Below are positions 48,712-64,000 of a DNA stretch of 64,000 nt, in pieces (position 1 is the first letter of the stretch; each line of letters starts with the position of its first letter). The notes under the pieces were generated by a model. It did not search any database and was not told the DNA's origin. It was given only the letters and a program-made list of their open reading frames with translations. The DNA lies in the NCBI RefSeq assembly GCF_009742725.1, contig NZ_WPHG01000003.1, positions 682,001-746,000 of the forward strand, read 5' to 3'. The translations under genes were made by a program, and so were the position numbers. The stretch is from Nitratireductor arenosus. Lineage in GTDB: Bacteria; Pseudomonadota; Alphaproteobacteria; Rhizobiales; Rhizobiaceae.

Positions 48712-50091
48712 ATGAGCGACTACGATCTGATTATCACCGGACAAGTGGTGGACGCGGTCCGCGTCCGCGAAAACGGCTATGTGGCAATCCGTGGCGGGCT
48801 GGTGGAGCGCATCGGCGAGTGCCCGCCGCCGGCCGCGCGCGCGCGCCAGGATTTCGGCGACGCCTTCGTGCTGCCGGGCGCCATCGACGCGCAGGTTCAT
48901 TCACGTTCGCAGCGCGGCCAGGAGGATTTCGTCTGGTCGACGCGCGCGGCGGCGGCCGGCGGCGTGACGACCATCGTCGACATGCCTTATGACGACGGCG
49001 TTTTGATCTGCACCGGCGAGCGGCTTGCGACCAAGGCGCGCGAGGCCGGCGAGCAGGCGCGCGTCGACTTCGCGCTCTACGGCACGGTGCATCCCGATGA
49101 CGGCCCGCGCCACATCGCCGAGATGGTCGCCGCCGGCGCGGCCGCCTTCAAATTCTCCACCTTCGGCACGCATCCGCAGCGTTTCCCGCGCATTGCGCCG
49201 CATATGCTGCAGGCCTGCTTCGCCGAAATCGCCCGGCATGGGCTCGCCGCCGGCGCACACAACGAAAGCGACGAGTTGGTTCGCGCCGCCGAGGCCGAGG
49301 TCGCCCGCTCCGGCATCACCGACTATCGCGCCCACGGCCTGGCGCGACCGGCTCTGGCCGAGGCGCTGGCCACCGCCGAGGTCTACGAGATCGGCGCGGC
49401 GACCGGCTGTTCGGCCCATATCGTGCATTGCTCGATCGGGCGCGGCTACGAATTGTGCCAGGACCATCGTGCGCGCGGTCACGACGCCACCATCGAAGCC
49501 TGCATCCACTATCTCGTGCTCGATGAGGAAAACGACGTCGCCCGGCTTGCCGGCAAAGCCAAGATCAACCCGCCGATCCGTCCGCGGGCCGAGGTCGAGG
49601 CGTTGTGGCGTCACCTGGCGGCGGGCCACGTTACCGTGGTGTCGACCGATCACGTGAGCTGGTCGAAGGATCGCAAGGCCGATCCGGTCATGCTCAACAA
49701 CGCCTCGGGCGTGCCGGGGTTGGAAGTGCTCTACGCGCTGCTTCTCGACGGGCTTCTGAAGCGGGGGTTGAGCCCGGTTTGGGCGGCGCGGCTGTTGGCG
49801 GCCAATCCGGCGCGGCTGTTCCGTATCGGCCACCGCAAGGGCGCGCTGGAACCGGGCCGCGACGCCGACATCGTCGTCATGGCGCGCGATCCGCGTCGTT
49901 ACGACGCCGGCGCCAGCGGCAACAATTTTGTCGGCTGGAGCCCCTATCAGGACATGGCGCTCGACTACAGGCCGGTCGCTACCTTCCAGCGCGGCGAAAT
50001 GGTCTTCGACGGCACGCGCGTTCTGGCCGAGCCCGGTGCGGGCCGGTTCGTCACCCCGGCGCGTGCGCTTGCGGAGAATGGCGGACAATGA
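48712..50091 (+). CDS. Dihydropyrimidinase/hydantoinase-like amidohydrolase with altered metal site
   Basis: A 459-residue cyclic amidohydrolase of the dihydropyrimidinase/allantoinase group. Expected binuclear-site residues are in register: Lys147 (AAFKFSTFG), His183 (GAHNES), His239 (HIVHCS) and Asp313 (STDHVSW). The first metal His-x-His motif, however, reads DAQVHSRSQ: Gln61 replaces the first His, with His63 kept. In the presumed pathway it would open a hydantoin ring to an N-carbamoyl amino acid for the next gene product. It has a near-perfect Shine-Dalgarno (AGGAGGA) and is first in a chain of genes joined by short overlaps. Allantoinase-like action is an alternative. Confidence 0.85.
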   Translation: MSDYDLIITGQVVDAVRVRENGYVAIRGGLVERIGECPPPAARARQDFGDAFVLPGAIDAQVHSRSQRGQEDFVWSTRAAAAGGVTTIVDMPYDDGVLICTGERLATKAREAGEQARVDFALYGTVHPDDGPRHIAEMVAAGAAAFKFSTFGTHPQRFPRIAPHMLQACFAEIARHGLAAGAHNESDELVRAAEAEVARSGITDYRAHGLARPALAEALATAEVYEIGAATGCSAHIVHCSIGRGYELCQDHRARGHDATIEACIHYLVLDEENDVARLAGKAKINPPIRPRAEVEALWRHLAAGHVTVVSTDHVSWSKDRKADPVMLNNASGVPGLEVLYALLLDGLLKRGLSPVWAARLLAANPARLFRIGHRKGALEPGRDADIVVMARDPRRYDAGASGNNFVGWSPYQDMALDYRPVATFQRGEMVFDGTRVLAEPGAGRFVTPARALAENGGQ

Positions 50092-51383
50092 CGGCGCGAT
50101 GCACGAACCTGCCGGTCGATGGCGGCCGGCTGTGGGCCGACCTGATGGCGCTGGGCACGATCACCGAACCGGACAAGCCCTATACGCGCCGTTCCTTCTC
50201 GCCGCTGTTTCTGGAAGGGCGCGACTGGCTGGCCAAGCGCTTCGCCGCCGCAGGCCTGTCGGTACGCATCGATACTGGCGGCAACCTGATCGGCCGCATG
50301 GAAGGCGCACGCGCCGATGCCGGCACGATCATGATCGGCTCGCATTCCGATACGGTGCCGTCCGGCGGGCGGTTCGACGGCGTGGCCGGCGTGGTCGTGG
50401 CGCTTGAGATCGCCCGCTCGCTGCGCGAGGCCGGCCGGCGGCTTAATTGCGCGATCGAGGTCGTCGACTTCCTGGCCGAGGAGCCGAGCGAATTCGGCCT
50501 GTCCTGCGTCGGCAGCCGTGCTTTGACCGGCCGGCTGACGGACGACCAGCTCGCCTATCGCGATCCGGCCGGCGAGCGGCTCGATCAGGCGATCGCCCGC
50601 GTCGGCGGCGATCCGGCCCGACTCGCCGCCGCGCGGCGCGACGACATTGTCGGCTTTTTCGAGTTGCATATCGAGCAGGGCATCGTGCTGGAGCAGCAGG
50701 GCATCGACCTTGGCATCGTCACCGCGATCGCCGGTATCGCCCGCGTCGAGATCGTGTTCGACGGCCGTGCCGACCATGCCGGCACCACGCCGATGGACCT
50801 GCGCCGCGATGCCGGGCTGGCAGCGGCGATCACATCGGCCTTTGTCGCCTCGACGGCACGCGAGGCCGCCGCCGGTGGCAACGGCCACTTCGTCGCCACC
50901 ACGGGCGTGTTCGAGCAGTTTCCGAACGCGGCCAATGTCGTTCCCGGCAAGGCGCGCCTCGTCGTCGATATCCGGGCCGAGGACCATGCCGTCACCGAGC
51001 GCTTCCTCGCAGCACTCGACGCGCGCAGCGGCGAGATCGCGCGTGAGTGCGGCGTCGAGCGCGCCCGCTTTGCGCTGTTGTCTGACACCGATCCGGCCCC
51101 CTGCGACACCGCGCTGCAGGCGCTCTTGTCGCAAAGTGCCGACGCACTCGGCTATTTGTCCCTGCCGATGGCGTCGGGCGCCGGCCACGACGCGGCCTTC
51201 ATGTCGCATATCGCGCCGAGCGCCATGGTGTTCGTCCCGTGCCGCGACGGGCGCAGCCACGCGCCCGAGGAATGGGGCGAACCGGATGCGATCGCCGCTG
51301 GCGCGGCGGTCATCCACGACGCGGTGCTGCGTCTGGACGAACGACACAACAAGACCGAATCCGAAGGGAGCCACGCCAGATGA
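50088..51383 (+). CDS. M20 family N-carbamoyl-L-amino-acid hydrolase/allantoate amidohydrolase-like
   Basis: A 431-residue zinc hydrolase. Metal ligands match the family: His86 and Asp88-type motif GSHSDTVPSGGRFDG with Asp97, Glu131-Glu132 in DFLAEEPSEFG, His in FFELHIEQG and His in SGAGHDAAFMSHIAP near the end. Enzymes of this group hydrolyse N-carbamoyl amino acids, ureidopropionate or allantoate, releasing CO2 and ammonia. Coupled by ATGA overlap to the hydantoinase-like gene, it is the natural next step. Dimerisation domain at about 210-325 (RVEIVFDGRADHAGTTPMDL). A longer in-frame upstream stretch is part of the preceding gene in another frame. Confidence 0.92.
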   Translation: MTARCTNLPVDGGRLWADLMALGTITEPDKPYTRRSFSPLFLEGRDWLAKRFAAAGLSVRIDTGGNLIGRMEGARADAGTIMIGSHSDTVPSGGRFDGVAGVVVALEIARSLREAGRRLNCAIEVVDFLAEEPSEFGLSCVGSRALTGRLTDDQLAYRDPAGERLDQAIARVGGDPARLAAARRDDIVGFFELHIEQGIVLEQQGIDLGIVTAIAGIARVEIVFDGRADHAGTTPMDLRRDAGLAAAITSAFVASTAREAAAGGNGHFVATTGVFEQFPNAANVVPGKARLVVDIRAEDHAVTERFLAALDARSGEIARECGVERARFALLSDTDPAPCDTALQALLSQSADALGYLSLPMASGAGHDAAFMSHIAPSAMVFVPCRDGRSHAPEEWGEPDAIAAGAAVIHDAVLRLDERHNKTESEGSHAR

Positions 51384-52468
51384 CACGAATTCTACGGGCC
51401 CACGATATCGAGGCTGCCGTCAAGGGCGGCGCGGTCTACGCCGCCGGCGGTGGCGGCTGGGCCGATCACGGACGCATGCTGGGAACGGCCGCCGTCAATG
51501 CCGGCGAGCCGGAACTGGTGTCGATGGACGACGTTCCCGACGACGCCTGGATCGCCACCGCCGCCGCGATCGGCGCACCGGCTGGCACGACGGAATGGCA
51601 GATGCTGGGTGTCGATTACGTCAAGGCCGTCCGGCTGGTGGAGGAAGAGCTCGGCGCGCCGATCTATGGGCTCATCATCGGCCAGAACGGCAAGTCGAGC
51701 ACGCTCAACGCCTGGCTGCCCTCGGCGATCCTCGGCACCAAGGTGATCGACGCCGTCGGCGATATCCGCGCCCATCCGACCGGCGACATGGGCTCGATCG
51801 GCCTGGCCAATTCGCCCGAGCCGATGATCCAGTCGGCGGTGGGCGGCAACAGGTCCAAGAACGCCTATATCGAACTCGTCGTGCGCGGCGCGACCGCCAA
51901 GGTGTCGCCGATCCTGCGCACCGCCTCCGACATGTCGGGCGGTTTCATTGCCTCGTGCCGCAATCCGGTGCCGGCCGCCTATGTTCGCGAGCACGCCGCG
52001 CTTGGCGGCATTTCTATGGCGCTGGCGCTGGGCGAGGCGATCATCGCGGCCGAGCCGCGTGGCGGCACTGCGGTGATCGACGCCATCTGCAAGCAGACCA
52101 AGGGCGAGATCATCGGCCAGGGCAAGGTCGTTGCCAAGGACGTCGTCTACACCAACGAGGCCTTCGATGTCGGCACGATCCAGGTCGGCAGCGGCAAGGG
52201 CGCCTGCGTGCTGCACGTCATGAACGAATACATGGCCGTCGACGATGGCGAGGCAAAGCGCATCGCCGGTTATCCCGACGTCATCACCACGCTGAATACA
52301 AACGGCGTGCCGATGAGCGTCGGCGAGGTTGTCGAGGGCATGGAGCTTCTGGTGCTGCGCGTGCCCAAGACCGTGATCCCGCTGTCCTCCAGCGTCACCG
52401 ATCCGGCGGTCTATCCGTCCGTCGAGGCGACGCTTGGCATCAATCTGACAGACTACGCGCTGGGCTAG
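51380..52468 (+). CDS. DUF917 / S-methyl-thiohydantoin desulfurase-like protein
   Basis: A 362-residue DUF917-type protein; the family was renamed after S-methyl thiohydantoin desulfurase. The N-terminus DIEAAVKGGAVYAAGGGGWA (about 8-27) with the Gly-rich turn, then EPELVSMDDVPDDAWIATAA, RAHPTGDMGSIGLANSP (about 128-144) and the C-terminal VLRVPKTVIPLSSSVTDPAV are characteristic. Such enzymes replace sulfur at C2 of a (methyl)thiohydantoin, giving a hydantoin. ATGA overlap with the M20 gene and 14 bases before the urocanase homologue put it exactly between hydration and ring opening. A related role on another hydantoin derivative is possible. Confidence 0.8.
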   Translation: MTRILRAHDIEAAVKGGAVYAAGGGGWADHGRMLGTAAVNAGEPELVSMDDVPDDAWIATAAAIGAPAGTTEWQMLGVDYVKAVRLVEEELGAPIYGLIIGQNGKSSTLNAWLPSAILGTKVIDAVGDIRAHPTGDMGSIGLANSPEPMIQSAVGGNRSKNAYIELVVRGATAKVSPILRTASDMSGGFIASCRNPVPAAYVREHAALGGISMALALGEAIIAAEPRGGTAVIDAICKQTKGEIIGQGKVVAKDVVYTNEAFDVGTIQVGSGKGACVLHVMNEYMAVDDGEAKRIAGYPDVITTLNTNGVPMSVGEVVEGMELLVLRVPKTVIPLSSSVTDPAVYPSVEATLGINLTDYALG

Positions 52469-52482
52469 GTAGGGAAACCGTC

Positions 52483-54153
52483 ATGCATCGAGATTTTACC
52501 GTGACGAGCGGCACGACGCTGCGTTGCAAGGGCTGGCGCCAGGAAGGGCTTCTGCGCCTTCTGGAAAACGTGCTTGCCGTCGGCGAGGACCCCGACAATC
52601 TGATCGTCTACGCCGCACTCGGCCGTGCTGCGCGCGACTGGCCCTCGCATGACAGGATCGTCGAGACGTTGAAAACGATCGAGGACGGCGAGACGCTGAT
52701 CGTCCAATCGGGCAAGCCGATCGGCGTGGTTCGCACCCACCCCAAGGCCCCCGTCGTGCTGATGGCCAATTGCAATATGGTCGGCCAGTGGGCGAAGGCG
52801 GAGAATTTTTATCGCTGGCAGGACGACAACCTGATCTGCTGGGGCGGGCTGACGGCCGGAGACTGGCAATATATCGGCTCGCAGGGCGTCATTCAGGGCA
52901 CTTACGAGATCTTCATGCGCATCGCCGAGCAGAATTTCGGCGACAATCTGGCAGGGCGTTTCGTGCTGACGGCCGGGCTCGGCGGCATGGGCGGCGCCCA
53001 GCCGCTCGCCGGCGTGATGGCCAGGGCCGCGATCCTGTGCGTGGAAATCGATCCCAAGCGCATCGAAAAACGCATCGAGGTCGGCTATCTCGACAAGCAG
53101 GCCGAAACGCTCGACGAGGCGCTGGCGCTGATCGAAGAAGCCCGTGCCAACAAGGAACCCCTCTCGGTCGGCTTGTGCGCCAACGCCGCCGACATCTTCG
53201 AGCAGATCCGCCAGCGCGGCATCGTGCCCGACATCGTCACCGACCAGACCTCCGCCCACGACCTGATCTACGGCTATGTGCCGGCGGACTACGACCTGGA
53301 GACAGTGCGCCGCATGCGCCGCGAAGCGCCGGACGAACTGATGGCCGCCTCGACCCGCTCGATCGTGCGCCATGTCGGTGCGATGCTGGCCTTCCAGAAG
53401 GCCGGCGCGGTGGTGTTCGACAACGGCAATCTGATCCGGACCCAAGCCAAGGAAGGCAGCGTGGACAACGCGTTCGACATCCCGATCTTCACAGAGGCCT
53501 TCCTGCGGCCGCTGTTTGCCCGAGCCATCGGACCATTCCGCTGGATCGCCCTGTCGAACGATCCCGACGACATTCGCAAGATCGACGACTGGCTGCTGGA
53601 CGAGTTCAAGGACGATGCCGGCGTCACCCGCTGGATCGAACTGGCGCGCAAGCACGTGCCGGTCGAGGGCATGCCGGCGCGCATCGCCTGGCTCGGCCAC
53701 GGCGACCGCACCAAGCTCGGCCTTGCCGTCAACCGCATGGTGCGCGACGGCGTGTTGGCGGGGCCGGTGGCGTTCACCCGCGACCACCTCGACGCCGGCG
53801 CCATGGCGCATCCCAACATCATGACCGAGAACATGCGCGACGGCTCCGACGCGATCGCGGATTGGCCGCTGCTCAACGCGCTGGTCAACTGCGCCTCGCA
53901 GGCCGATCTGGTCGCGATCCATTCCGGCGGTGGCGGCTATTCGGGCTATATGACAAGCTCGGGCGTGACCCTGGTCGCCGATGGCTCGGCCGCGGCGGAC
54001 GAACGGCTGGAGATGACCCTGACCAACGACACCACCACCGGCGTGATGCGTTATGCCGATGCGGGTTACGAGGAGTCCTTCGACGAGATCGCCCGCAAGG
54101 ACATCCGGCATTTCCGGCTCGACACGACCGGCAAGGGCGGGTCCGGGGCATGA
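52483..54153 (+). CDS. Urocanase family hydratase (thiourocanate-hydratase-like), catalytic Cys replaced
   Basis: A 556-residue urocanase homologue, the normal family length. Tightly bound NAD+ motifs are kept: WQYIGSQGVIQGTYE (about 128-142), TAGLGGMGGAQPLAG (about 163-177) and TDQTSAHDLIYGY (about 253-265), as well as MRDGSDAIADWPLLNAL. But the segment ARICWLG of urocanases, holding the catalytic Cys (410 in Pseudomonas putida), reads ARIAWLG with Ala402, and the substrate-pocket HHGGGVGMGFSQH region reads HSGGGGYSGYMTS (about 480-492). It thus probably hydrates an imidazole-acrylate other than urocanate, for example a thio- or S-methylthio-urocanate. Next comes UbiD (ATGA overlap). Confidence 0.9.
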   Translation: MHRDFTVTSGTTLRCKGWRQEGLLRLLENVLAVGEDPDNLIVYAALGRAARDWPSHDRIVETLKTIEDGETLIVQSGKPIGVVRTHPKAPVVLMANCNMVGQWAKAENFYRWQDDNLICWGGLTAGDWQYIGSQGVIQGTYEIFMRIAEQNFGDNLAGRFVLTAGLGGMGGAQPLAGVMARAAILCVEIDPKRIEKRIEVGYLDKQAETLDEALALIEEARANKEPLSVGLCANAADIFEQIRQRGIVPDIVTDQTSAHDLIYGYVPADYDLETVRRMRREAPDELMAASTRSIVRHVGAMLAFQKAGAVVFDNGNLIRTQAKEGSVDNAFDIPIFTEAFLRPLFARAIGPFRWIALSNDPDDIRKIDDWLLDEFKDDAGVTRWIELARKHVPVEGMPARIAWLGHGDRTKLGLAVNRMVRDGVLAGPVAFTRDHLDAGAMAHPNIMTENMRDGSDAIADWPLLNALVNCASQADLVAIHSGGGGYSGYMTSSGVTLVADGSAAADERLEMTLTNDTTTGVMRYADAGYEESFDEIARKDIRHFRLDTTGKGGSGA

Positions 54154-55514
54154 GCATCGACCAGAGCATGCGCGGCTTCCTGGCCGCGCTGGAGGACGAC
54201 GGCGAGTTGCATCGCGTCGGCCGTGTAGTTGACCCGCGTTTCGAGCTGGCCTCGGTCCTGTCCCTGCGCGACGACGGCGCCGCGCAACTGTTCGAGAACG
54301 TGCAGGGCAGCGCCATGCCCGTCGTCGGCAACCTCTACAACCACCGCAGCCGCTTCGCCCGGGCGCTCGCCATCGAGGAAGCCGACCTCGACGCGCATTG
54401 CCTGGCTGCGCTGCGTCAGCCGGTCAAGCCGGTCATGGTCGAAGACGGGCCGGTGCAGGAGGTCGTCCACCGGGCGCCCTTCGACATCGGCGAACTGATG
54501 CCGGTGCCGCACTGGTTCGAAAAAGAAGGAGCGCCCTATATCACCGCCGGGGTGATTGTGGCCAAGGATCCCGAAACCGGCCGTCGCAACGTGTCCATCG
54601 CGCGCTTCCGGCTCGAAGGCGGCATGCGGATGATGGCGGGCATTGCCAAGAACCACCATCTCGCGCAGATGGCCGAAAAGGCCCGCCGTCTCGGACGCGA
54701 TCTCGAAATCGCCGTGGCGATCGGCAATCATGCCGCCGTTCTGCTCGGCTCGCAGCTCTATCTCGAGCTGGGCGATGACGAGTTCGACAATGCCGGTGCG
54801 CTGCTCGGCGCTCCGATCGAACTCGTCAAGTGCAAGACGGTCGATCTCGAAGTGCCGGCCCATGCCGAAATCGTGATCGAGGGGCGGCTCAAGCCCGACG
54901 ACCTGATCGAGGAGGGCGCGGTCTCCGAGTTCCCGGGCTTCTACGTCTATTACGGCCCGGGCATCGGCGTCGAGGCGAGCTGTGTGACGCACCGCAAGGA
55001 TGCGATCTATCAGGCGATCCTGCCCGGCTATGCGCGCGAGCATTGCCTGATCGGCGCGGTCTCGATCGGCGCGACGCTGACGCGCGATCTCAAGCGCGCC
55101 ATTCCGGCCGTCCGCCGCGTCTTCGTCACCGAAGGCGGCATGGGCCGCCTGCACGCCGTCGTCACCATGCACAAACCGCGCCTCGGCGAGGGCAAGCGCG
55201 CGGTGATGCTGGCGATGGGCTCGGTCAATCTCCTGAAACTGGTTATCGTCGTCGACGACGATGTCGATCCCGAAGACTGGCGCCAGGTCGAATGGTCGCT
55301 CGCGGCCCGATTCCGGGCGCATGAGGACCTGATCGTGCTGCCGGGCGTCAAGGCGGACCGCTGCGATCCCGTGCACGAGGACCTGGTCGTCACCAAGATA
55401 GGCATGATCGCCACCACCCGTCCGGGCGACGGCGCGCCGGGCGGCCGCTCGGAATTCGTCCGACCGCCGGCCGAGATCTATGAAAGGGTGCGCCGCGACC
55501 TCGAATCCTATTAG
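54150..55514 (+). CDS. UbiD family prenylated-FMN-dependent decarboxylase
   Basis: A 454-residue UbiD-type (de)carboxylase. RNVSIARFRLEGGMRMM (about 146-162) supplies the prFMN-contacting Arg, and EEGAVSEFPGFYVYYGP (about 254-270) holds the acidic residues of the usual E-R-E catalytic set. UbiD enzymes act reversibly on alpha,beta-unsaturated and aromatic acids; cinnamate-type acrylates are classical substrates, so a heteroaryl acrylate is conceivable here. Ubiquinone-pathway UbiD is longer (about 490) and normally elsewhere, so this is a catabolic member. Overlaps the urocanase homologue by four bases and precedes its maturase ubiX by 31 bases. Confidence 0.9.
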   Translation: MSIDQSMRGFLAALEDDGELHRVGRVVDPRFELASVLSLRDDGAAQLFENVQGSAMPVVGNLYNHRSRFARALAIEEADLDAHCLAALRQPVKPVMVEDGPVQEVVHRAPFDIGELMPVPHWFEKEGAPYITAGVIVAKDPETGRRNVSIARFRLEGGMRMMAGIAKNHHLAQMAEKARRLGRDLEIAVAIGNHAAVLLGSQLYLELGDDEFDNAGALLGAPIELVKCKTVDLEVPAHAEIVIEGRLKPDDLIEEGAVSEFPGFYVYYGPGIGVEASCVTHRKDAIYQAILPGYAREHCLIGAVSIGATLTRDLKRAIPAVRRVFVTEGGMGRLHAVVTMHKPRLGEGKRAVMLAMGSVNLLKLVIVVDDDVDPEDWRQVEWSLAARFRAHEDLIVLPGVKADRCDPVHEDLVVTKIGMIATTRPGDGAPGGRSEFVRPPAEIYERVRRDLESY

Positions 55515-55545
55515 GATCGGGGCGGTCCGGCGCCTGCGAGGGCCC

Positions 55546-56106
55546 ATGACCAAACGCTTCATCGTCGCAATCACCGGAGCCTCGGGCCATGTCTACGGTA
55601 TCCGGCTCCTTGAGGTGCTGCGCGCGCTCGGCTGCGAGACACACCTGGTGATGTCGCGCTCTGCCGTCGTCGCGCTCGCCCACGAGACCGACCTGAAGCA
55701 GGCCGATATCCACGCCCTGGCCGATCACGTCCATTCCAACGACGACGTCGCCGCCTCCATATCCAGCGGGTCGTTCCGCGTCGACGGCATGTTCATCGCG
55801 CCGTGCTCGGCCAAGACACTGGGCGAGATCGCATCCGGGGCCTGCGGCACGCTGGTCTCGCGCGCCGCCGATGTGAGCCTGAAGGAACGGCGCCGGCTGG
55901 TGCTTCTGTTCCGCGAGACGCCGTTGCATCTCGGCCATTGCCGCAACATGGTCTCGGTGACGGAGATGGGCGCGATCGTCATGCCTCCGGTCCCCGCCTT
56001 CTATCCCCGTCCCGACACGGTCGAAGAGATGGTCGATCACACGGTCGGCCGGGTACTCGACCTGGTCGATATCGACGCTGGAATCGTAAAACGTTGGAAA
56101 AGCTAG
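55546..56106 (+). CDS. ubiX: UbiX-type flavin prenyltransferase
   Basis: A 186-residue flavin prenyltransferase that makes prenylated FMN, the cofactor of UbiD-type enzymes. FIVAITGASGHVYGIRLLEV is the N-terminal FMN-binding motif; SISSGSFRVDGMFIAPCSAK (about 67-86) and LLFRETPLHLGH (about 121-132), with the conserved Arg-Glu pair, complete the active site. The ATG at 55546 follows CGAGGG. A dedicated ubiX beside ubiD in a catabolic operon is the usual arrangement for UbiD/UbiX systems and confirms that UbiD is active. Confidence 0.93.
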   Translation: MTKRFIVAITGASGHVYGIRLLEVLRALGCETHLVMSRSAVVALAHETDLKQADIHALADHVHSNDDVAASISSGSFRVDGMFIAPCSAKTLGEIASGACGTLVSRAADVSLKERRRLVLLFRETPLHLGHCRNMVSVTEMGAIVMPPVPAFYPRPDTVEEMVDHTVGRVLDLVDIDAGIVKRWKS

Positions 56107-56257
56107 GCCTCACGGGCGGTCGAGCTTCGTCTTTCGTGATTGTCCAGTTTCGCAAAACCTATTTCAGCGTGGGTGCCCGCAGACACGATAATTTTCGCCG
56201 TCATACGAACATAGCCGTGTTCCTGGTCGCCAGGCGCGAGCTCGAAAGGGAGAGACG

Positions 56258-57277
56258 ATGACAACGATCAAAAAACTGACCATGGCTGCGGTCATTCTGG
56301 GCAGCGCGTTCGTGCAGCCGGCCCTGGCGGAATCGCCCGTGGTGCTGAAATTCGCCAGCGCCTTCCCGCCCGGCACAAAGACCAACTCGATTTCGATCCC
56401 CGCTTTCATCAAGGCGGTTGAGGAGGCTTCCGAAGGCACGCTGAAGATCGAGCATTATCCCGGCGGCACCTTGGGAGCGAGCCCGACCACCCAGCTCAAG
56501 CTGGTCGAGGACGGCGTCGTCGACATCGCCGAGGTCGTCGCGTCCTACACCCCCGGCCGTTTCCCCGAGCTGGAAATGTTCGAACTGCCGTTCGTGTTTG
56601 AAAACACGCGCGAAGCCAGCCTGACCGCTTACGCGCTGTATGAAAAGGGCTTCTTCACCGGCTTCGACAAGCTCGAGCTCGTCGGCATCGCCGAGGTGGG
56701 TCCCTATTATCTGCACAGCAAAAAGGAACTCGCCACGGTCGACGACATTTCCGGCCAGAAGTTGCGTGCCGGCGGCCCGGTTCAGGGCGCGGTCGTGCAG
56801 GCGATGGGCGGCGTTCCCGTCGGCGGCATGCCGGCCACCCAGATTGCGGAAAACATCTCGCGCAACGTGGTCGACGGCACGCTGATGGATATCGGCAATA
56901 TGTTCAACTTCCGCATCGCGGATGCGGCCGGTTACCACGTCATCAATGCCCCGCTGGGCAATGTCGCGGTCATGTTCCCGATGCGCAAGGACACCTATGA
57001 GAGCCTGCCGCCCAAGGCCAAAGCCGCTTTCGATAAATATCGCGGCATGTGGTTTTCCAATGTTCTGTCCGAAAACCTGGACAAGCAGAACGATGAATCC
57101 GCCGCCCGCCTTGAGGCCGATGCCGAGCACAATATGGTCGAGTTTTCTGACGAAGACATCGATACGCTCAAAGGCGCTTTCGCCGGTCTGAAGGATCGCT
57201 GGGATGCCGACAAAGACGGCGTGAACCTGTATCAGGAGATGCTGTCCGCGCGCGACGCCGTGCGCGCCGACAAGTAA
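56258..57277 (+). CDS. TRAP transporter solute-binding protein, DctP family
   Basis: A 339-residue periplasmic protein. Signal peptide with cleavage after PALAE near 25. The DctP fold is shown by LKFASAFPPGTKTNSISIPA at the mature start and Arg170 in ISGQKLRAGG, the residue that usually clamps the ligand carboxylate, so an organic acid is the likely cargo. AAAGGGAGAG lies upstream of the ATG. The 151-base gap after ubiX could hold its own promoter, but orientation and context suggest it is part of the same regulon. The gene is followed by a hairpin and then the two membrane subunits. Confidence 0.92.
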   Translation: MTTIKKLTMAAVILGSAFVQPALAESPVVLKFASAFPPGTKTNSISIPAFIKAVEEASEGTLKIEHYPGGTLGASPTTQLKLVEDGVVDIAEVVASYTPGRFPELEMFELPFVFENTREASLTAYALYEKGFFTGFDKLELVGIAEVGPYYLHSKKELATVDDISGQKLRAGGPVQGAVVQAMGGVPVGGMPATQIAENISRNVVDGTLMDIGNMFNFRIADAAGYHVINAPLGNVAVMFPMRKDTYESLPPKAKAAFDKYRGMWFSNVLSENLDKQNDESAARLEADAEHNMVEFSDEDIDTLKGAFAGLKDRWDADKDGVNLYQEMLSARDAVRADK

Positions 57278-57283
57278 AAACCA

Positions 57284-57318
57284 GCCCGACGGTCGCGGCT
57301 TGGCCGTGGCCGTCGGGC
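57284..57318 (+). other. Intercistronic stem-loop after dctP-type gene
   Basis: GCCCGACGG (57284-57292) pairs perfectly with CCGTCGGGC (57310-57318); the 17-base loop can form further CGGC/GCCG pairs. It starts seven bases after the binding-protein stop and lacks a U-run, so it probably stabilises the 3' end of the binding-protein message rather than ending transcription. Confidence 0.6.
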
Positions 57319-57360
57319 CCACGCCGCGCGTCAGAGCGCGGCAAGCCGAGAGCTCCTCCC

Positions 57361-57924
57361 ATGACATTGCTGGCAAATATTCGCAGACTTGCCCAGTTCG
57401 CGGCCACGATCGGGCTTGCCGCGCTTGTCGTCCTGTCGATCATGACCATGGTCGACATTGCCGGGCGGGAACTGTTCGGTACGCCGGTCACCGGCTTCAG
57501 CGACATCTCTGACCTGATCATCGTGATCGCCGCCGCCGCCTGCTTCCCCGCGTCGCTGGCCACAAACCAGCATGTCTCGGTGCGTTTCGCCGGCATGGCG
57601 CATTGGCGCCTGGGAGCGGTGCTCGATTTCCTCGGACATGTAATCATGCTCGCCGTCTTCGTGCTGATCGCCTGGCAGCTTTGGGTCTACGCGATCGACG
57701 TCTACACATCCGGCCAGACCACCTGGCTGATCTACATTCCCGTGTGGCCGGTATGGGTGCTGACGACGGCACTGTTCGTGCTGTGTATTCCCGTCCAACT
57801 CTCGCTGGTTGTCGCCGCGGCCCGCGACATCCGCTTCTCGGCGCAGAACCCGGTAGGCATGAACGATGCCGCGGCGACATCCGTGCGCCCCGAGAACAAG
57901 GAGGAGCCCGATGGCACCGATTGA
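57361..57924 (+). CDS. TRAP transporter small permease, DctQ family
   Basis: A 187-residue protein with four hydrophobic segments (for instance FAATIGLAALVVLSIMTMVD at about 17-36) and the DctQ pattern DIAGRELFGTPVTGFSDISD (about 36-55). With the DctM subunit it forms the sodium- or proton-driven importer for the ligand of the preceding binding protein. The last 14 bases overlap the large permease gene. The C-terminal ~25 residues (PENKEEPDGTD) are charged and cytoplasmic. Confidence 0.9.
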   Translation: MTLLANIRRLAQFAATIGLAALVVLSIMTMVDIAGRELFGTPVTGFSDISDLIIVIAAAACFPASLATNQHVSVRFAGMAHWRLGAVLDFLGHVIMLAVFVLIAWQLWVYAIDVYTSGQTTWLIYIPVWPVWVLTTALFVLCIPVQLSLVVAAARDIRFSAQNPVGMNDAAATSVRPENKEEPDGTD

Positions 57925-59215
57925 AGTCGGCCTGGTCGGGCTTGCCTGCCTGATCGCCGCGATCCTGCTGCATGTGCCGGTCGGCATCGCCATGGCCGCG
58001 GTGGGGGCGGCGGGTTACGTGATGTTGACCGGCAATCTGTCGGGCATGGTCTCCCTGTTCGGCACCGAAACCGTCAACATGCTCACGAACCAGGATTTCG
58101 CGGTCGTGATGTTCTTCCTGTTGATGGGGGGCTTTGCCGGCGCGGCCGGCATCTCCGCCGACATCTACCGCGTCGCCAACACCTGGATCGGTCACTACCG
58201 GGGCGGATTGTCGATGGCGACCATCCTGGGCTGCGCCGGTTTCGGCGCCATTGCCGGCTCGTCGATCGCAACCGCCGCCACCATGGCCAAGATCGCGCTG
58301 CCGGAGATGGAAAAGCGCAACTACGCGCTGTCCCTGTGCACCGGCACCTTGGCTGCCGGCGGCACGCTCGGATCGCTGATCCCGCCATCGATCATCATGG
58401 TGATCTATGCCGTCCAGGTCGAGCAGTTCGTCATCGACCTGTTTCTGGCCGCGATCATTCCCGGCCTGCTTTCTGTCGCGCTGTTCGTTCTCGCCATCCG
58501 CGTCCAACTGCTGATATCGCCGCATCTCGCCGGCGCGGGCGAGCGCATAGCCTGGCGCGGGCGGATGCGCGAAACGGGGCGTGCCTGGGCGCCGATCGGC
58601 ATTATCGTTGTGGTGATGGGCGGCATCTATTCCGGCTTTTTCACCGTCAACGAGGGCGCCGCGGTCGGTCTGGTGCTGACCCTGATCTTCGCTGTCGCGA
58701 GAAAGTCGCTGACACGTGCCACCTTCACCGAGACGCTGTTCGGATCGGCCGGTTCGATCGCCATGCTCTACATGATCGTGATCGGGGCCAATATCTTCGG
58801 CTATTTCCTGACCTTGTCGCACATGCCCAGCGAGGTCGCGACCTGGGTCCAGGGTCTCGACATCCCGCCGTTGGCGATCGTCTTCATCATCATCGCTATG
58901 TATGTGCTTCTGGGCTGTGTTTTCGATGCGCTTGCCGGCATGGTGCTGACGCTTCCCTTCGTCGTGCCGATCATCAGCGGGCTCGGCTACGACCTGGTCT
59001 GGTGGGGCATCGTCAATGTGATGGTCATCGAGATCGGCATGATCACGCCGCCGGTCGGCATCAATGTCTTCGTCATCAAAGGGCTGCGTCAGGACATACC
59101 GCTGGGAACGATTTTCCGCGGCATCACGCCGTTCCTGATCGCCAACGTCGTTGCGCTTCTGCTCGTTGTCCTGTTCCCGCAGCTCGCAACCTGGCTGCCG
59201 GATCTGTTGCGCTAG
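57911..59215 (+). CDS. TRAP transporter large permease, DctM family
   Basis: A 434-residue, very hydrophobic protein with about 12 membrane segments. GFGAIAGSSIATAATMAKIA (about 112-131), LAAGGTLGSLIPPSIIMVIY and VIEIGMITPPVGINVFVIKG are signature stretches of DctM. The ATG at 57911 has AGGAG and lies inside the end of the dctQ-type gene. It completes the importer that supplies the catabolic genes on both sides. Ligand not identified. Confidence 0.93.
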   Translation: MAPIEVGLVGLACLIAAILLHVPVGIAMAAVGAAGYVMLTGNLSGMVSLFGTETVNMLTNQDFAVVMFFLLMGGFAGAAGISADIYRVANTWIGHYRGGLSMATILGCAGFGAIAGSSIATAATMAKIALPEMEKRNYALSLCTGTLAAGGTLGSLIPPSIIMVIYAVQVEQFVIDLFLAAIIPGLLSVALFVLAIRVQLLISPHLAGAGERIAWRGRMRETGRAWAPIGIIVVVMGGIYSGFFTVNEGAAVGLVLTLIFAVARKSLTRATFTETLFGSAGSIAMLYMIVIGANIFGYFLTLSHMPSEVATWVQGLDIPPLAIVFIIIAMYVLLGCVFDALAGMVLTLPFVVPIISGLGYDLVWWGIVNVMVIEIGMITPPVGINVFVIKGLRQDIPLGTIFRGITPFLIANVVALLLVVLFPQLATWLPDLLR

Positions 59216-59251
59216 GGCCCGCCCGCGCGCGCACCAAAACTGGAGATAATA

Positions 59252-60442
59252 ATGCCTTCGACCAAGCCCTTCGCCGGGGTGACCGTGCTCGACTTCAGCC
59301 GGGTTCTGGCCGGCCCGTTCTGTACCGCCATGCTGGCCGATCTCGGCGCTGAGATCATCAAGGTCGAGCCGCCCACCGGCGACGACCAGCGCTCGATGGG
59401 CGCTTTTTCGCAGGGCATCAGCGTCAGTTTCGAACTGATCAACCGCAACAAACGCAGCATCCGGCTCGACTTGAAGAGCGAGGAAGGCCGGGTGATCGCG
59501 CGCCGCCTGGCGGCCAGAAGCGATGTGGTGGTGGAGAATTTCCGTCCCGGCGTCGCCCGCAAGCTCGGCATCGACGCCGACGCGCTGCGCGGCGAGCGGG
59601 CCGATCTGATCTACTGCTCGATCTCCGGCTTCGGTCAGGACGGACCGCTGGCGCGTGCGCCGAGCTATGACGTCGTCGCTCAGGCGCTGTCGGGCCTGAT
59701 GAGCATCACCGGCGAGCCCGACGGCGAGCCGATGATGGTCGGCGATTCGGTCGGCGACACGGTCTCGGGCCTTTATGCCGGCTTCGCGATCGCTGCCGCC
59801 CTCTACCGGCGCGCGACGACCGGCGAGGGGGCGACGCTCGACATCGCCATGTTCGATTCGCTGTTTTCCCTGCTCCCGACCGCGCTGGCACAGCTTCAGG
59901 TCAACGACCAGCCGCCGACCCGGCAGGGCAACCAGCATCCGCTGTCGGCGCCCTTCGGCGCGTTCGTGGCCAAGGGCGGGACCATCATCATCGCGATCGC
60001 CAACAATTCGCTGTTTGCCCGTTTCGCCGCCACCATCGGCCGGCCGGAACTTGCGGACGACCCGCGCTATGCCTCCGACCGCGAGCGCCGCGTCAATCGC
60101 GACGCGCTGCGCGCGGAAATCGAGTCCTGGTCGCGCGATCTGTCGCCGGAAGCCGCGGTCGAACGCCTGGCCGCCGCCGGCATTCCGGCATCGGTAGTGT
60201 GGGACGTCGCTGAGGCCGCCGACAGCGCCCATGCCCGTCATCGCAGGCTGATGACGACGGTCGACCATGACAGGCTCGGCACGCTCAGATTGCCCGAGCA
60301 GCCCGTACATGTCGCCGGGCTGGAGCGGGGCGAGGCGCGCCCGGCGCCGGAGCTTGGCGAACATGGCGGCACGATCCTGCAAGACATGCTCGACATGGAC
60401 GCGGGCGAGATCGCGCGGCTGCGGACAGCCGGCGTCATCTGA
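59252..60442 (+). CDS. CaiB/BaiF family (class III) CoA-transferase
   Basis: A 396-residue CoA-transferase. It opens with FAGVTVLDFSRVLAGPFCTA, then GAEIIKVEPPTGDDQR (about 32-47), and has Asp169 in the VGDTVSGLYAG motif as the nucleophile. It would activate an organic acid, such as the TRAP cargo, to the CoA thioester with an acyl-CoA donor. It follows the TRAP genes by 36 bases and precedes two acyl-CoA dehydrogenases, making an uptake-activation-oxidation series. It is only distantly similar to the CoA-transferase at 2443. Confidence 0.93.
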   Translation: MPSTKPFAGVTVLDFSRVLAGPFCTAMLADLGAEIIKVEPPTGDDQRSMGAFSQGISVSFELINRNKRSIRLDLKSEEGRVIARRLAARSDVVVENFRPGVARKLGIDADALRGERADLIYCSISGFGQDGPLARAPSYDVVAQALSGLMSITGEPDGEPMMVGDSVGDTVSGLYAGFAIAAALYRRATTGEGATLDIAMFDSLFSLLPTALAQLQVNDQPPTRQGNQHPLSAPFGAFVAKGGTIIIAIANNSLFARFAATIGRPELADDPRYASDRERRVNRDALRAEIESWSRDLSPEAAVERLAAAGIPASVVWDVAEAADSAHARHRRLMTTVDHDRLGTLRLPEQPVHVAGLERGEARPAPELGEHGGTILQDMLDMDAGEIARLRTAGVI

Positions 60443-60464
60443 CACCTGACAGCGGAACCAGACC

Positions 60465-61640
60465 ATGACGATGATTTTTACTGACGACGACAAGGCCTTC
60501 AGCGCCGAGGTTCGCACCTATTTGAGCGACAACCTGCCCGCCGAGCTGGCGCGCAAGGTACGTTATAATCAAAGGCTGACGCGGGACGACTACACGTCCT
60601 GGCAGGACGTTCTGGCGGCCCGCAACTGGCACGCGGTCGGCTGGCCCGCCTCGGCCGGCGGACCGGGTCTGACTCAGACCCAGCGCTATCTGTTCGAGCG
60701 CGAATATGGCGCGCTGTCATGTCCGCATCCGTGCCAGTTCGGCATTGCGATGGCGGGGCCGGTCATCTTCACCTTCGGCAATGACGAGCAGAAGGCGCGG
60801 TTCCTGCCCGGTATTCGCGAAAACAAGGACTTCTGGTGTCAGGGTTATTCCGAACCTGGGGCTGGCTCCGATCTCGCCGCGCTGAAGACCACGGCGGTGC
60901 GCGAGGGCGACCACTATCGCGTCAATGGCCAGAAGATCTGGACCACCTGGGCGAACTGGGCCGACTGGATGTTCTGTCTGGTCAAGACCGATCTCGAGGT
61001 GAAGCCGCAGCGCGGCATCTCTTTCCTGCTGATCGACATGCGCTCGCCCGGCATTACCGTGCGCCCGATCAAGACGATCGACGGCGACGAGGAATTCAAC
61101 GAAGTCTTCTTCAACGACGTGTTGGTGCCGGTCGAAAACCGCATCGGCGAGGAAGGGCAGGGCTGGACCTACGCCAAGTTCTTACTCGAATTCGAACGGT
61201 TTTCGATGTCGGGCGCGGCACGCTCGCGGCGTGTCCTTTCCGAAATCCGGGCCGACGCCGAAGCGCTCGGCAAGGCCGATGACGCACGCGTGGCCGAGCG
61301 GCTGACCCGCCTGGAAATCGAGCTTCTGGCGCTGGAGCACATGGAGCTGCACCTCTTGGCGCGCAGCGTCGGCGGCGAAAATCCCGGCCCGGAAGCCTCG
61401 AAGCTCAAGATTCGCGGCACCGAGATCGCCCAGGCGCTGTCGCGGCTCAGGGTCGATCTGCACGCCGAGGATTGCCTCGTCCATTCCGAGGCGTTCCTGG
61501 ACGCTTCGGAACCGTCCGACAATCCGTCGGCGATGGGCGCGATCGCGACCTATCTCAACCAGCGCAAGCTGACGATCTGGGGCGGATCGAACGAGGTTCA
61601 GCGCATGATCCTTGCCAAGCAGATTCTGGAACTCGGGTGA
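60465..61640 (+). CDS. Acyl-CoA dehydrogenase (first of a pair)
   Basis: A 391-residue FAD enzyme. WCQGYSEPGAGSDLAALKTT (about 124-143) is the flavin/substrate signature, INGQ-like VNGQKIWTTWANWADWMFC follows, and the C-terminal WGGSNEVQRMILAKQILEL is the second ACAD signature. It dehydrogenates an acyl-CoA at the alpha-beta position and passes electrons to ETF. The next gene encodes a shorter, divergent ACAD; such adjacent pairs often form alpha2beta2 enzymes, as with steroid side-chain ACADs. Starts 22 bases after the CoA-transferase gene. Confidence 0.93.
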   Translation: MTMIFTDDDKAFSAEVRTYLSDNLPAELARKVRYNQRLTRDDYTSWQDVLAARNWHAVGWPASAGGPGLTQTQRYLFEREYGALSCPHPCQFGIAMAGPVIFTFGNDEQKARFLPGIRENKDFWCQGYSEPGAGSDLAALKTTAVREGDHYRVNGQKIWTTWANWADWMFCLVKTDLEVKPQRGISFLLIDMRSPGITVRPIKTIDGDEEFNEVFFNDVLVPVENRIGEEGQGWTYAKFLLEFERFSMSGAARSRRVLSEIRADAEALGKADDARVAERLTRLEIELLALEHMELHLLARSVGGENPGPEASKLKIRGTEIAQALSRLRVDLHAEDCLVHSEAFLDASEPSDNPSAMGAIATYLNQRKLTIWGGSNEVQRMILAKQILELG

Positions 61641-61646
61641 GCGGCG

Positions 61647-62702
61647 ATGAGTACCAATCTTGATGATGAACTCCACATGCTTACCGAAACGGTGGCGCGC
61701 TATGTCGCCAACCGGTCGGACGGCAAGGCCAACAGCGAAGACGGCTGGAAGGAACTGGCCGAGCTCGGCTGGCTCTACCTGCCCTATCCCGAAGAGGTCG
61801 GCGGGCTCAGGCTCGGCACGGCGGGGGTCTCGGCCGTCATGCAGGGCCATGGTCGTGGCCTGTTGGCCACGCCCTATCTGCCGTTCGCGGTCATGGCCGG
61901 CGGCGTGCTCGCGCGCTGCCCGCGCGCATCGCAGACGCTCGCCGCGGTGATGGAAGGCACGCAGCGCGTTGCCGCCGCGTTTGTGGTTGGCGCCGCCCCG
62001 ACGCAGGTGGCGCAGGCGGCCGATGACGGCTGGCGCTTGGCCGGCGCGTGCGATCACGTCCTGGCCGTCGACGAGGCCGACGCGGTGCTGGCATTGGCGC
62101 GGATCGGCGCGAGCGACGAGACCGGGCTGTTTGTGGTCCGCACCGACGCGCCCGGAGTGACGGTCGAGCCTCATCTCCTGCCGGACGGGCGAAGGGCGGG
62201 ACGTGTCGGTTTCGACGATGTCGCGGTCGCGGCAGCCGATCGCCTGGACGATGACGGCGGGGTCGAAACGCTGCTGCGCGAGGTGGAAACCGAGGCGCTG
62301 CTCGCCGCGGCTGCCGACAATCTCGGCGCCATGCAGGTGCTTTATGAGCAGACGCTGGATTATGCTAAGCTGCGCAGGCAGTTCGGCCGGCCTATCGGCT
62401 CGTTCCAGAGCCTTCAATTCCGGCTGGTCGACATGTGGATCAAGCTCGACGAGGTCCGTTCGCTGGTTTCCTCGGCGGCCGGCGCTGAGGATCGACAGGA
62501 GGCCGGTGCGCTCGCGATCGCGGCCTGGATCCAGTCCGTGTGGTCCGGCCGGCTGATAGGCGAGGAGGCGATCCAGATCCATGGCGCCATCGCCATGACC
62601 GACGAGCATGCGGTCGGCCGCTACGTCAAGCGCATCCTGGTCAACGAACTGGTGTTCGGGGCTCCGGAGCGGCATTTTTCCCGCTATCGCTCCATGCGGT
62701 AG
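61647..62702 (+). CDS. Acyl-CoA dehydrogenase-like protein (second of a pair)
   Basis: A 351-residue, divergent acyl-CoA dehydrogenase. The N-terminal domain is short, the middle has GLFVVRTDAPGVTVEPHLLP and the C-terminal helical domain has YEQTLDYAKLRRQFGRPIGS (about 232-251) and GEEAIQIHGAIAMTDEHAVG, typical of ACAD family members. The EPGAGSD-type signature of the first copy is absent, so it may be a partner subunit that completes FAD or substrate binding rather than an independent enzyme. Six bases separate it from the first ACAD. It ends 13 bases before the convergent LysR gene. Confidence 0.9.
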   Translation: MSTNLDDELHMLTETVARYVANRSDGKANSEDGWKELAELGWLYLPYPEEVGGLRLGTAGVSAVMQGHGRGLLATPYLPFAVMAGGVLARCPRASQTLAAVMEGTQRVAAAFVVGAAPTQVAQAADDGWRLAGACDHVLAVDEADAVLALARIGASDETGLFVVRTDAPGVTVEPHLLPDGRRAGRVGFDDVAVAAADRLDDDGGVETLLREVETEALLAAAADNLGAMQVLYEQTLDYAKLRRQFGRPIGSFQSLQFRLVDMWIKLDEVRSLVSSAAGAEDRQEAGALAIAAWIQSVWSGRLIGEEAIQIHGAIAMTDEHAVGRYVKRILVNELVFGAPERHFSRYRSMR

Positions 62703-62715
62703 CGCTGGATGCCGC

Positions 62716-64000
62716 CTATGCCAGGTGGCGCCTGATTGTGTCCACTAGGGCGCGCTCGATCTCCGTCAGGCTGCGCGACGTCGAGAACATGATCGACAGC
62801 CGGCGATAGATCGTCGGGTCTACGATCGCGTTGATCTGAAAGGCGCCTTCGGCCACGAACGGCTGGACTGTCACTTCTGGCATGACGGTTGCGAGCGGCA
62901 TGCGGCGTACCATCGCCAGCACTACTGCGAGCGAGTTGACCTCGACTCGCGGCACGATGGAGACGCGGGCTTCCTCGGCCGCTTTGTTTATCAGCTGCCG
63001 CAATCCAAACGTGTCGCTGGGCAGAACCAGAGGCAGGTTCGCGAGCCGCGCAAGCGGCACGTCTCCGGGCGCAAGCATGTCGCGGCCGGATTTCGAGACC
63101 ACCACCAGCTGGTCCTGACTGTTCAGGTCGAGCTGGACCGACCGCGACACATGCGCCTCGACCAGACCGAGGCTTATCTTTCCGGTCTCGACCCAGCGGT
63201 GCAGCACCGTTGCGGCTGCCTCCACGACATGCAGCTTGACCTCCGGATAGGTCGCGGTCCATTCCTCAAGGGCGCCGGCGATGGCTTCTACCAGGGCGCC
63301 GCGGTGGTTGAGTAGCGGGACCACGCCGACGGTCAGCCTGCGGCCCTGTTGCGAGGCCTGGCGGCGCGCCTCTACCGCGACATTGCCGCACAGTTCCACG
63401 GCTTCCTCGATCAGGGGCACGAGCGCCTCGGCTTCCGGCGTGGGTTTCAGCCCGGTGCGCTGGCGTTCGAACAGCGGTTCGCCGATGATCGCTTCGAGCT
63501 TGCGCAACTGGTTGGACAGGGCCGGCTGGACCACGTTCAGCTTGCGCGCGGCGGCCGTCATGTTCATCTGGTCGAAGAGAACCAGGAAATAGCGCAATTG
63601 CCGCAGCGTGATATGCGGATCGTAGACGATCGGACGGTCCGGTTCGGCGAGGATGCGCTTCAGGTGCCCGACATAGGCCTGACCCAGGAGGCTGCCGTCC
63701 TGGACGCTGGCGGCGACCGGGCTGACGAGTTCGCTCGGCAGGCTGACATGGTCGAGTTGCAGGCGCGACAGGCCCCCGGCGACGAGGCTGCGCGGCGCCA
63801 GCAACGCGAACGGGCGGGCGTCGCGGGAAAGCGTGGGAAATGTCCCGACATCCTCCTCCACGGTCACCGGCTCGGGCAGGTTGTGGCGCGCGCAATAGCT
63901 ACGCGCATGGTGCGTCTGTGCCGGCAGCAATGGCGGCAGCAGAAGGCGCAGGTTTCGCAAGGCATCGAAATCGATCACGCGGCCTTGTTCGAGGCTGCGG
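62716..64000 (-). CDS. Tandem LysR-type regulator (second unit complete, first unit cut by window edge)
   Basis: The open frame continues past the window end, so the true start is outside. From about 63612 downward it encodes a full LysR protein of ~298 residues: helix-turn-helix ITLRQLRYFLVLFDQMNMTA with PALSNQLRKLEAIIGEPLFE, then an effector-binding domain. In front of it in the same frame lie >125 residues that look like the end of another LysR effector domain (FPTLSRDARPFALLAPRSLV, then VAASVQDGSLLGQAYVGHLK). No stop or frame change separates them. It is thus probably a two-unit LysR-LysR fusion; a GTG at 63978 could be misread as a start. It likely controls the convergent catabolic operon. 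Confidence 0.8.
   Translation of the reverse strand, partial: RSLEQGRVIDFDALRNLRLLLPPLLPAQTHHARSYCARHNLPEPVTVEEDVGTFPTLSRDARPFALLAPRSLVAGGLSRLQLDHVSLPSELVSPVAASVQDGSLLGQAYVGHLKRILAEPDRPIVYDPHITLRQLRYFLVLFDQMNMTAAARKLNVVQPALSNQLRKLEAIIGEPLFERQRTGLKPTPEAEALVPLIEEAVELCGNVAVEARRQASQQGRRLTVGVVPLLNHRGALVEAIAGALEEWTATYPEVKLHVVEAAATVLHRWVETGKISLGLVEAHVSRSVQLDLNSQDQLVVVSKSGRDMLAPGDVPLARLANLPLVLPSDTFGLRQLINKAAEEARVSIVPRVEVNSLAVVLAMVRRMPLATVMPEVTVQPFVAEGAFQINAIVDPTIYRRLSIMFSTSRSLTEIERALVDTIRRHLA

Follow-up and report, generated by a model that had tools for sequence, protein, structure and literature searches.

The amidohydrolase gene at positions 48712-50091 of the window (the whole 64,000-nucleotide stretch of Nitratireductor arenosus DNA that was analysed) is very probably ertD, encoding a recognised ring-opening enzyme of late ergothioneine breakdown, and the Gln that occupies the place of its first metal-binding His is, at the same level of confidence, an inherited trait of a branch of hydantoinases. 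The ErtD family and the neighbouring enzymes (ErtE, the desulfurase and the hydratase) have already been named, and the main result is one of identification. The role of the enzyme thus has a name, and the altered metal site has no description in the literature found, as represented by titles and abstract openings; no publication on ErtD or on a Gln-bearing hydantoinase site was among the matches listed at that depth.

The gene is an unbroken forward-strand reading frame of 459 residues. Its product scored 772.6 bits against NCBIfam NF058538 (ergo_util_ErtD, hydantoin-5-propionate amidohydrolase, type 1; cut-off 600), exceeding the equivalog cut-off with a full-length match (profile positions 1-446 of 446), and also matched PF01979. 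It is a member of type 1 and shows no difference from it; members with His exist above the same cut-off (L046, 724.2 bits; L066, 622.1 bits). Against NF058539 (ErtD type 2), for which the annotated reaction is identical, it reached 349.9 bits, under the cut-off of 650, and falls outside that family. The protein nearest to type 2 among those scanned was L059 from Chloroflexi (481.2 bits, likewise under the cut-off), which has His at position 61 and HAE where the clade of the window protein has HNE. An AlphaFold2 model built from 27 sequences (mean pLDDT 94.6, pTM 0.93) was closest in fold to the L-hydantoinase 1gkr (TM-score 0.92; Z 55.4, rmsd 1.6 Å, 442 residues). This Arthrobacter aurescens enzyme is the best match among solved structures by sequence as well as fold, at 28% identity, but it keeps the full HxH motif, whereas ErtD has Gln at the first place. 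The gene and its neighbours are as follows.

48712-50091, forward strand: ErtD-type amidohydrolase (hydantoin-5-propionate amidohydrolase), 459 aa; NF058538, PF01979, 1gkr-like model
50088-51383, forward strand: ErtE, N-carbamyl-L-glutamate amidohydrolase (M20); NF058540, 579.9 bits, cut-off 520
51380-52468, forward strand: DUF917 protein, thiohydantoin desulfurase; NF058529, 607.9 bits, cut-off 440
52483-54153, forward strand: urocanase homologue, thiourocanate hydratase; NF058530, 1006.1 bits, cut-off 930
54150-55514, forward strand: UbiD-family decarboxylase; TIGR00148, 294.2 bits, cut-off 244.85
55546-56106, forward strand: UbiX-family flavin prenyltransferase, from its likely start (the frame opens at 55480); NF004685, 259 bits, cut-off 188
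56258-59215, forward strand: TRAP transporter genes DctP, small membrane protein (assigned as DctQ from position alone) and DctM; NF037995 and TIGR00786, over cut-off
59252-60442, forward strand: CaiB-type family III CoA-transferase; PF02515
60465-62702, forward strand: two pimeloyl-CoA dehydrogenase-like acyl-CoA dehydrogenases; TIGR03204, 379 bits, and TIGR03203, 165.8 bits, both under cut-off
62716-63978, reverse strand: LysR-type regulator; best NCBIfam matches CynR, CidR and PcaQ, all under cut-off

Neighbouring frames share four bases at three junctions, ertD-ertE (where the ertE start overlaps the ertD stop, ATGA), ertE-desulfurase and hydratase-ubiD. Promoter-like sites numbered 4, where shuffled sequence averaged 2.2 (sd 1.5), and terminator-like sites 9, where it averaged 7.8 (sd 3.1), so that neither count is informative.

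The route reported from work on Burkholderia sp. HME13 leads from thiourocanate through thiohydantoin propionate, hydantoin-5-propionate and N-carbamoyl-glutamate to glutamate, and this order of reactions agrees with the NCBIfam names of the window genes. Judged from these family assignments, the genes would cover the later steps of ergothioneine catabolism, down to glutamate. The hydratase and the DUF917 desulfurase would convert thiourocanate to hydantoin-5-propionate, ErtD would open the ring of this compound, its likely substrate in this organism, to give N-carbamoyl-L-glutamate, and the adjoining ErtE would release glutamate. Arg157 and Arg160, C-terminal of Lys147, are invariant in the clade of relatives described below. 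They lie in the stretch that we equate with the second active-site loop, residues of which contact the exocyclic group in hydantoinases (PMC9863593, in part), and they would fit a carboxylated side chain.

Residues 59-63 of ErtD read DAQVH. Residue 61, encoded by CAG at 48892-48894 (forward strand), is Gln at the place where relatives carry the first metal-binding His, so that the first alpha-site His of the HxH motif is replaced; HMMER alignments set it against the first HxH histidine of both the L-hydantoinase 1gkr and the allantoinase 3hm7. The protein therefore lacks the pair of HxH histidines typical of cyclic amidohydrolases (Q61, H63), and it has the Lys, the two further His, the Asp and the fold of the hydantoinase/allantoinase/dihydropyrimidinase class. 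Three longer paralogues in the same genome (L002-L004) all have His. The other five ligands (His63, Lys147, His183, His239 and Asp313) are intact in the window protein, and each is identical in all 77 members of the clade described below.

48898-48900, forward strand: His63, second His of HxH; invariant, 77/77
49150-49152, forward strand: Lys147, the expected carboxylated bridging lysine; invariant, 77/77
49258-49263, forward strand: His183 (beta-site ligand) and Asn184 (second clade marker); both 77/77
49426-49428, forward strand: His239, beta-site ligand; invariant, 77/77
49648-49650, forward strand: Asp313, catalytic and alpha-site Asp; invariant, 77/77

Relatives were drawn from 56 genome-contig loci, from eight of 350 matching plasmid records and from further genomes; the contig search was queried with peptides of the window protein, which skews the sample towards its relatives. 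After identical copies had been merged and genes of fewer than 400 residues dropped, 92 proteins were aligned, and a quick maximum-likelihood tree was calculated with column 61 left out. In this tree 77 distinct proteins, the window protein included, form one clade (SH-aLRT 99), in which 74 proteins carry Gln at position 61 and three carry His (L046, L066 and L069), with no other residue. The Gln codons are CAG (65) or CAA (9); each lies one third-base change from His, yet Gln has been kept, which points to conservation beyond chance. Each of the 14 outgroup rows that could be read has His, and the fifteenth (L102, a neighbouring paralogue) is gapped at this position. Asn184 is a stricter marker of the clade than Gln61, being present in 77/77, compared with Ala in 13 and Cys in 2 of the 15 outgroup proteins. 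The distribution of Gln and His on the tree needs four changes, three of them forced by starred branches, versus 16.8 with shuffled labels, the gapped row having been taken as His in this count. L046 is deeply nested among Gln proteins, which looks like a reversion to His; in the case of L066 and L069 we are unsure of the direction of change. Of the partial genes excluded from the tree, L058 has Gln, and L061 and L095 have His. Five relatives found later, 39-65% identical, all have Gln (L114, L115, L116, L118 and L119), as do L113 and L117, which repeat genes already in the tree. L113, 93% identical, comes from the same-genus genome G745 and, judged by its coordinates, is the gene already present in the tree as L011.

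The replacement at residue 61 noticed in the first-pass annotation is therefore real, being borne out by the alignments to 1gkr and 3hm7 and shared by 74 of the 77 clade members. That count and the Gln in G745 also exclude sequencing error as its source, which answers the objection that a correction might recover the His. The same annotation had described the remaining ligands as intact, which their invariance confirms, and had thought the enzyme likely active, as this conservation implies. Its proposal that Gln marks a subfamily is likewise upheld by the 74 of 77 within the clade and the His in every readable outgroup row. As far as sequences can tell, Gln has been inherited along one branch of L-hydantoinase/allantoinase-like enzymes and is not a defect. 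One altered or missing metal, as the annotation also supposed, is plausible.

ErtD would retain the usual hydrolytic mechanism, in which a metal-bound hydroxide, bridged by a presumably carboxylated Lys147, is activated by Asp313. A beta-site metal would be held normally by His183, His239 and Lys147, and an alpha-site metal, more weakly, by Gln61, His63, Lys147 and Asp313. We lean towards this picture, in which the alpha site is kept, with predicted metal occupancy and with Gln as a ligand. Excerpts of PMC3880350 give the alpha ligands of dihydroorotase as two His, an Asp and a carboxylated Lys, and the beta ligands as two further His and the same Lys. As one of the four alpha ligands is changed in ErtD and only Gln or His is found at 61, a kept but weaker alpha site is favoured. 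L046 (His) is 75% identical to L024 (Gln), so the two residues look exchangeable, which also favours a ligand role for Gln. Since a single base change converts Gln to His, the lack of other residues at position 61 is only mild evidence for such a role.

A serious rival, though the less likely reading, is that Gln instead abolishes the alpha site and leaves a beta-site-only enzyme, with a single metal at His183, His239 and Lys147, as in NagA. E. coli NagA, likewise an amidohydrolase, reads QXN in place of HxH, so that its first position is also Gln, and it binds a single metal, in the beta site, possibly because affinity is weaker (PMC3880350, in part); an excerpt of PMC6016474 describes QXN as the motif that goes with a single metal in NagA of E. 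coli and V. cholerae. The clade-invariant Asn184 could compensate for the loss, although the three His members carry it too. However, NagA has lost the second His as well, whereas in ErtD just the first is gone and the clade keeps His63, Asp313 and the bridging Lys without exception. NagA also differs in substrate and in metal-site type, Glu/His/His being listed as a distinct type in the text seen of PMC12017989. Two further enzymes also speak against this rival: A. aeolicus dihydroorotase is active with the alpha metal alone (PMC3880350, in part), and the single-metal form of dihydropyrimidinase, obtained by chelation, retains its alpha metal, the lysine then not being carboxylated (PMC8860565, in part). 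An alpha site that is weaker but has Gln among its ligands therefore seems to us more likely than a beta-site-only enzyme.

A wider proposal, which we put forward tentatively, is that the alpha site has been rebuilt throughout the hydantoinase branch, Gln taking the place of His and Asn184 adjoining a beta ligand, and that the enzymes use a single metal, or an alpha metal that is easily exchanged or is not zinc. Dihydropyrimidinase, which holds its alpha metal tightly, would be the opposite case, and the branch would reach well beyond ergothioneine breakdown.

The suggestion that the subfamily is tied to this operon did not hold under the refuting condition that the annotation itself had set, Gln in homologues from unrelated contexts. 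We surveyed 75 loci of at least 8 kb containing a relative at 37% identity or more, with near copies counted separately (for example six Pseudochrobactrum-type loci, L039-L043 and L045); 70 have Gln, three have His and two were unreadable from that alignment. Homologues of both DUF917 and urocanase accompany Gln at 30 of the 70 loci, DUF917 only at one, a urocanase homologue only (51-53%) at four and neither at 35, where absence means absence within the sequence examined, as flanks were mostly no longer than 9 kb and some contigs were shorter. ErtE is present in 20 of these 35 loci, often together with UbiD; the other 15 lack DUF917, urocanase and ErtE alike, and 12 of them include one or more genes of the racemase, dihydrodipicolinate-synthase or SDR families. 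Only 29 of the 70 have homologues of all three of ErtE, desulfurase and hydratase. Gln as a marker of the operon is ruled out by the 35 loci. The converse seems to fail as well, since ErtD-like proteins with His occur in ergothioneine-type clusters of Chloroflexi (L059, L061) and Deinococcus sp. KNUC1210 (L095), each near urocanase and ammonia-lyase homologues. These proteins are remote relatives; of the two from Chloroflexi, L059 was scanned and lies below both ErtD cut-offs, and the hydratase and desulfurase of L095 are under their family cut-offs. It is unlikely, given these clusters, that the ergothioneine step needs Gln, and the pathway appears from their gene content to run with His as well. 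Thus, when the tree and co-occurrence check proposed in the first-pass annotation was carried out, the part that stood was a true clade, and co-occurrence with DUF917 and urocanase was found in part of the loci only.

As half of the Gln loci are without hydratase or desulfurase homologues, the ErtD family name may cover other substrates. An unlikely extension of this point is that the window enzyme itself is not a functional ErtD, but a hydantoinase for another carboxylated hydantoin that has been borrowed by several operons, some with UbiD and UbiX, others with racemase- or dihydrodipicolinate-synthase-like genes. The 20 loci with ErtE but no DUF917 or urocanase and the 15 with none of the three are in keeping with it, as is L093 (Ensifer canadensis, 80% identical), which combines ErtE-, UbiD- and UbiX-type genes but has neither hydratase nor desulfurase. 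However, the desulfurase, hydratase and ErtE genes stand adjacent to ertD in the window, all above equivalog cut-offs. An inactive or regulatory pseudo-hydantoinase that has lost its metal site, like the vertebrate CRMPs, which are non-catalytic and share the fold of the ErtD model in the structure comparison, is very improbable, for although one canonical ligand is absent, all the others are invariant in 77/77 and the pathway needs a ring-opening step between the desulfurase and ErtE.

Several related clusters were seen in the survey. An ErtD-ErtE-UbiD-UbiX module with no hydratase or desulfurase within the sequence examined occurs at 9001-13645 of L093 and also in L008 and L009. Gln-type amidohydrolases without ErtE and with racemase-, dihydrodipicolinate-synthase- or SDR-family genes were found in L053-L057, L091, L092, L096 and L100-L103, amino-acid ABC transporters being annotated beside L091 and L096; such loci perhaps represent a different, unnamed pathway. 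A hybrid on a Microvirga ossetica plasmid (L090, 7767-16108) has a desulfurase, a Gln-type ErtD and ErtE, followed by flavin reductase, racemase, FAD oxidoreductase, dihydrodipicolinate-synthase-like and SDR genes. On Agrobacterium pAt15955 (L094, 2028-14711) a Gln-type ErtD lies beside genes that score as S-methyl thiohydantoin desulfurase and S-methyl thiourocanate hydratase, together with an M20 hydrolase, a bisC/TorA-like molybdopterin reductase, a glycine-betaine-type ABC transporter and an ammonia-lyase-family protein under the hutH cut-off. The His-type ErtD-like gene of Deinococcus sp. KNUC1210 (L095, 8094-9328) is annotated as two overlapping pieces and may be broken in the record.

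Ergothionase splits ergothioneine into trimethylamine and thiourocanic acid, according to an excerpt of PMC13405746 (2026), which also cites the Burkholderia, Agrobacterium and gut ergothioneine pathways. No ergothionase that could feed the pathway was found in the N. arenosus genome (4.81 Mb, 99.97% complete), where the single PF00221 lyase gene scores as hutH (718.9 bits, cut-off 539.15) and adjoins hutI (imidazolonepropionase). In 26 further genomes or records that carry such clusters, of which G745 and G799 appear to be the same genome and two are single plasmids, PF00221 genes of whatever class numbered none in 3, one in 13 and two to four in 10, and the missing ergothionase may not be special to N. 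arenosus. An apparent class of UbiD-bearing clusters without ammonia-lyase was an artefact of short flanks, as G802, G807 and G808 have a lyase-family gene on the same contig, about 5-8 kb from the desulfurase gene. The same genes overturned the idea that acyl-CoA dehydrogenases substitute for the lyase everywhere; such a substitution is possible in N. arenosus. Downstream of the ergothioneine genes, the window has UbiD, UbiX, TRAP, CoA-transferase and two acyl-CoA dehydrogenase genes (54150-62702). We offer only as a suggestion that the TRAP transporter, the CoA-transferase and the dehydrogenases suit uptake of the reduced compound 3-(2-thioxoimidazolyl)propionate and its desaturation to thiourocanate. 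In a search of 26 genomes or records together with N. arenosus, G745, G800, G801, G807 and G808 proved to have a dehydrogenase homologue no more than 13 kb from the desulfurase gene.

Gln members outside ergothioneine-type clusters are a warning that naming based on NF058538 may overreach. Finally, these enzymes amount to a natural experiment, in which apparently the same pathway step is served by Gln in the window branch and by His in the Chloroflexi and Deinococcus clusters and in the close relative L046. A comparison of Gln and His enzymes would tell whether a complete alpha site is required for hydantoin hydrolysis and, if the alpha site has been rebuilt throughout the branch, its few natural His members would reveal the effect of the change.
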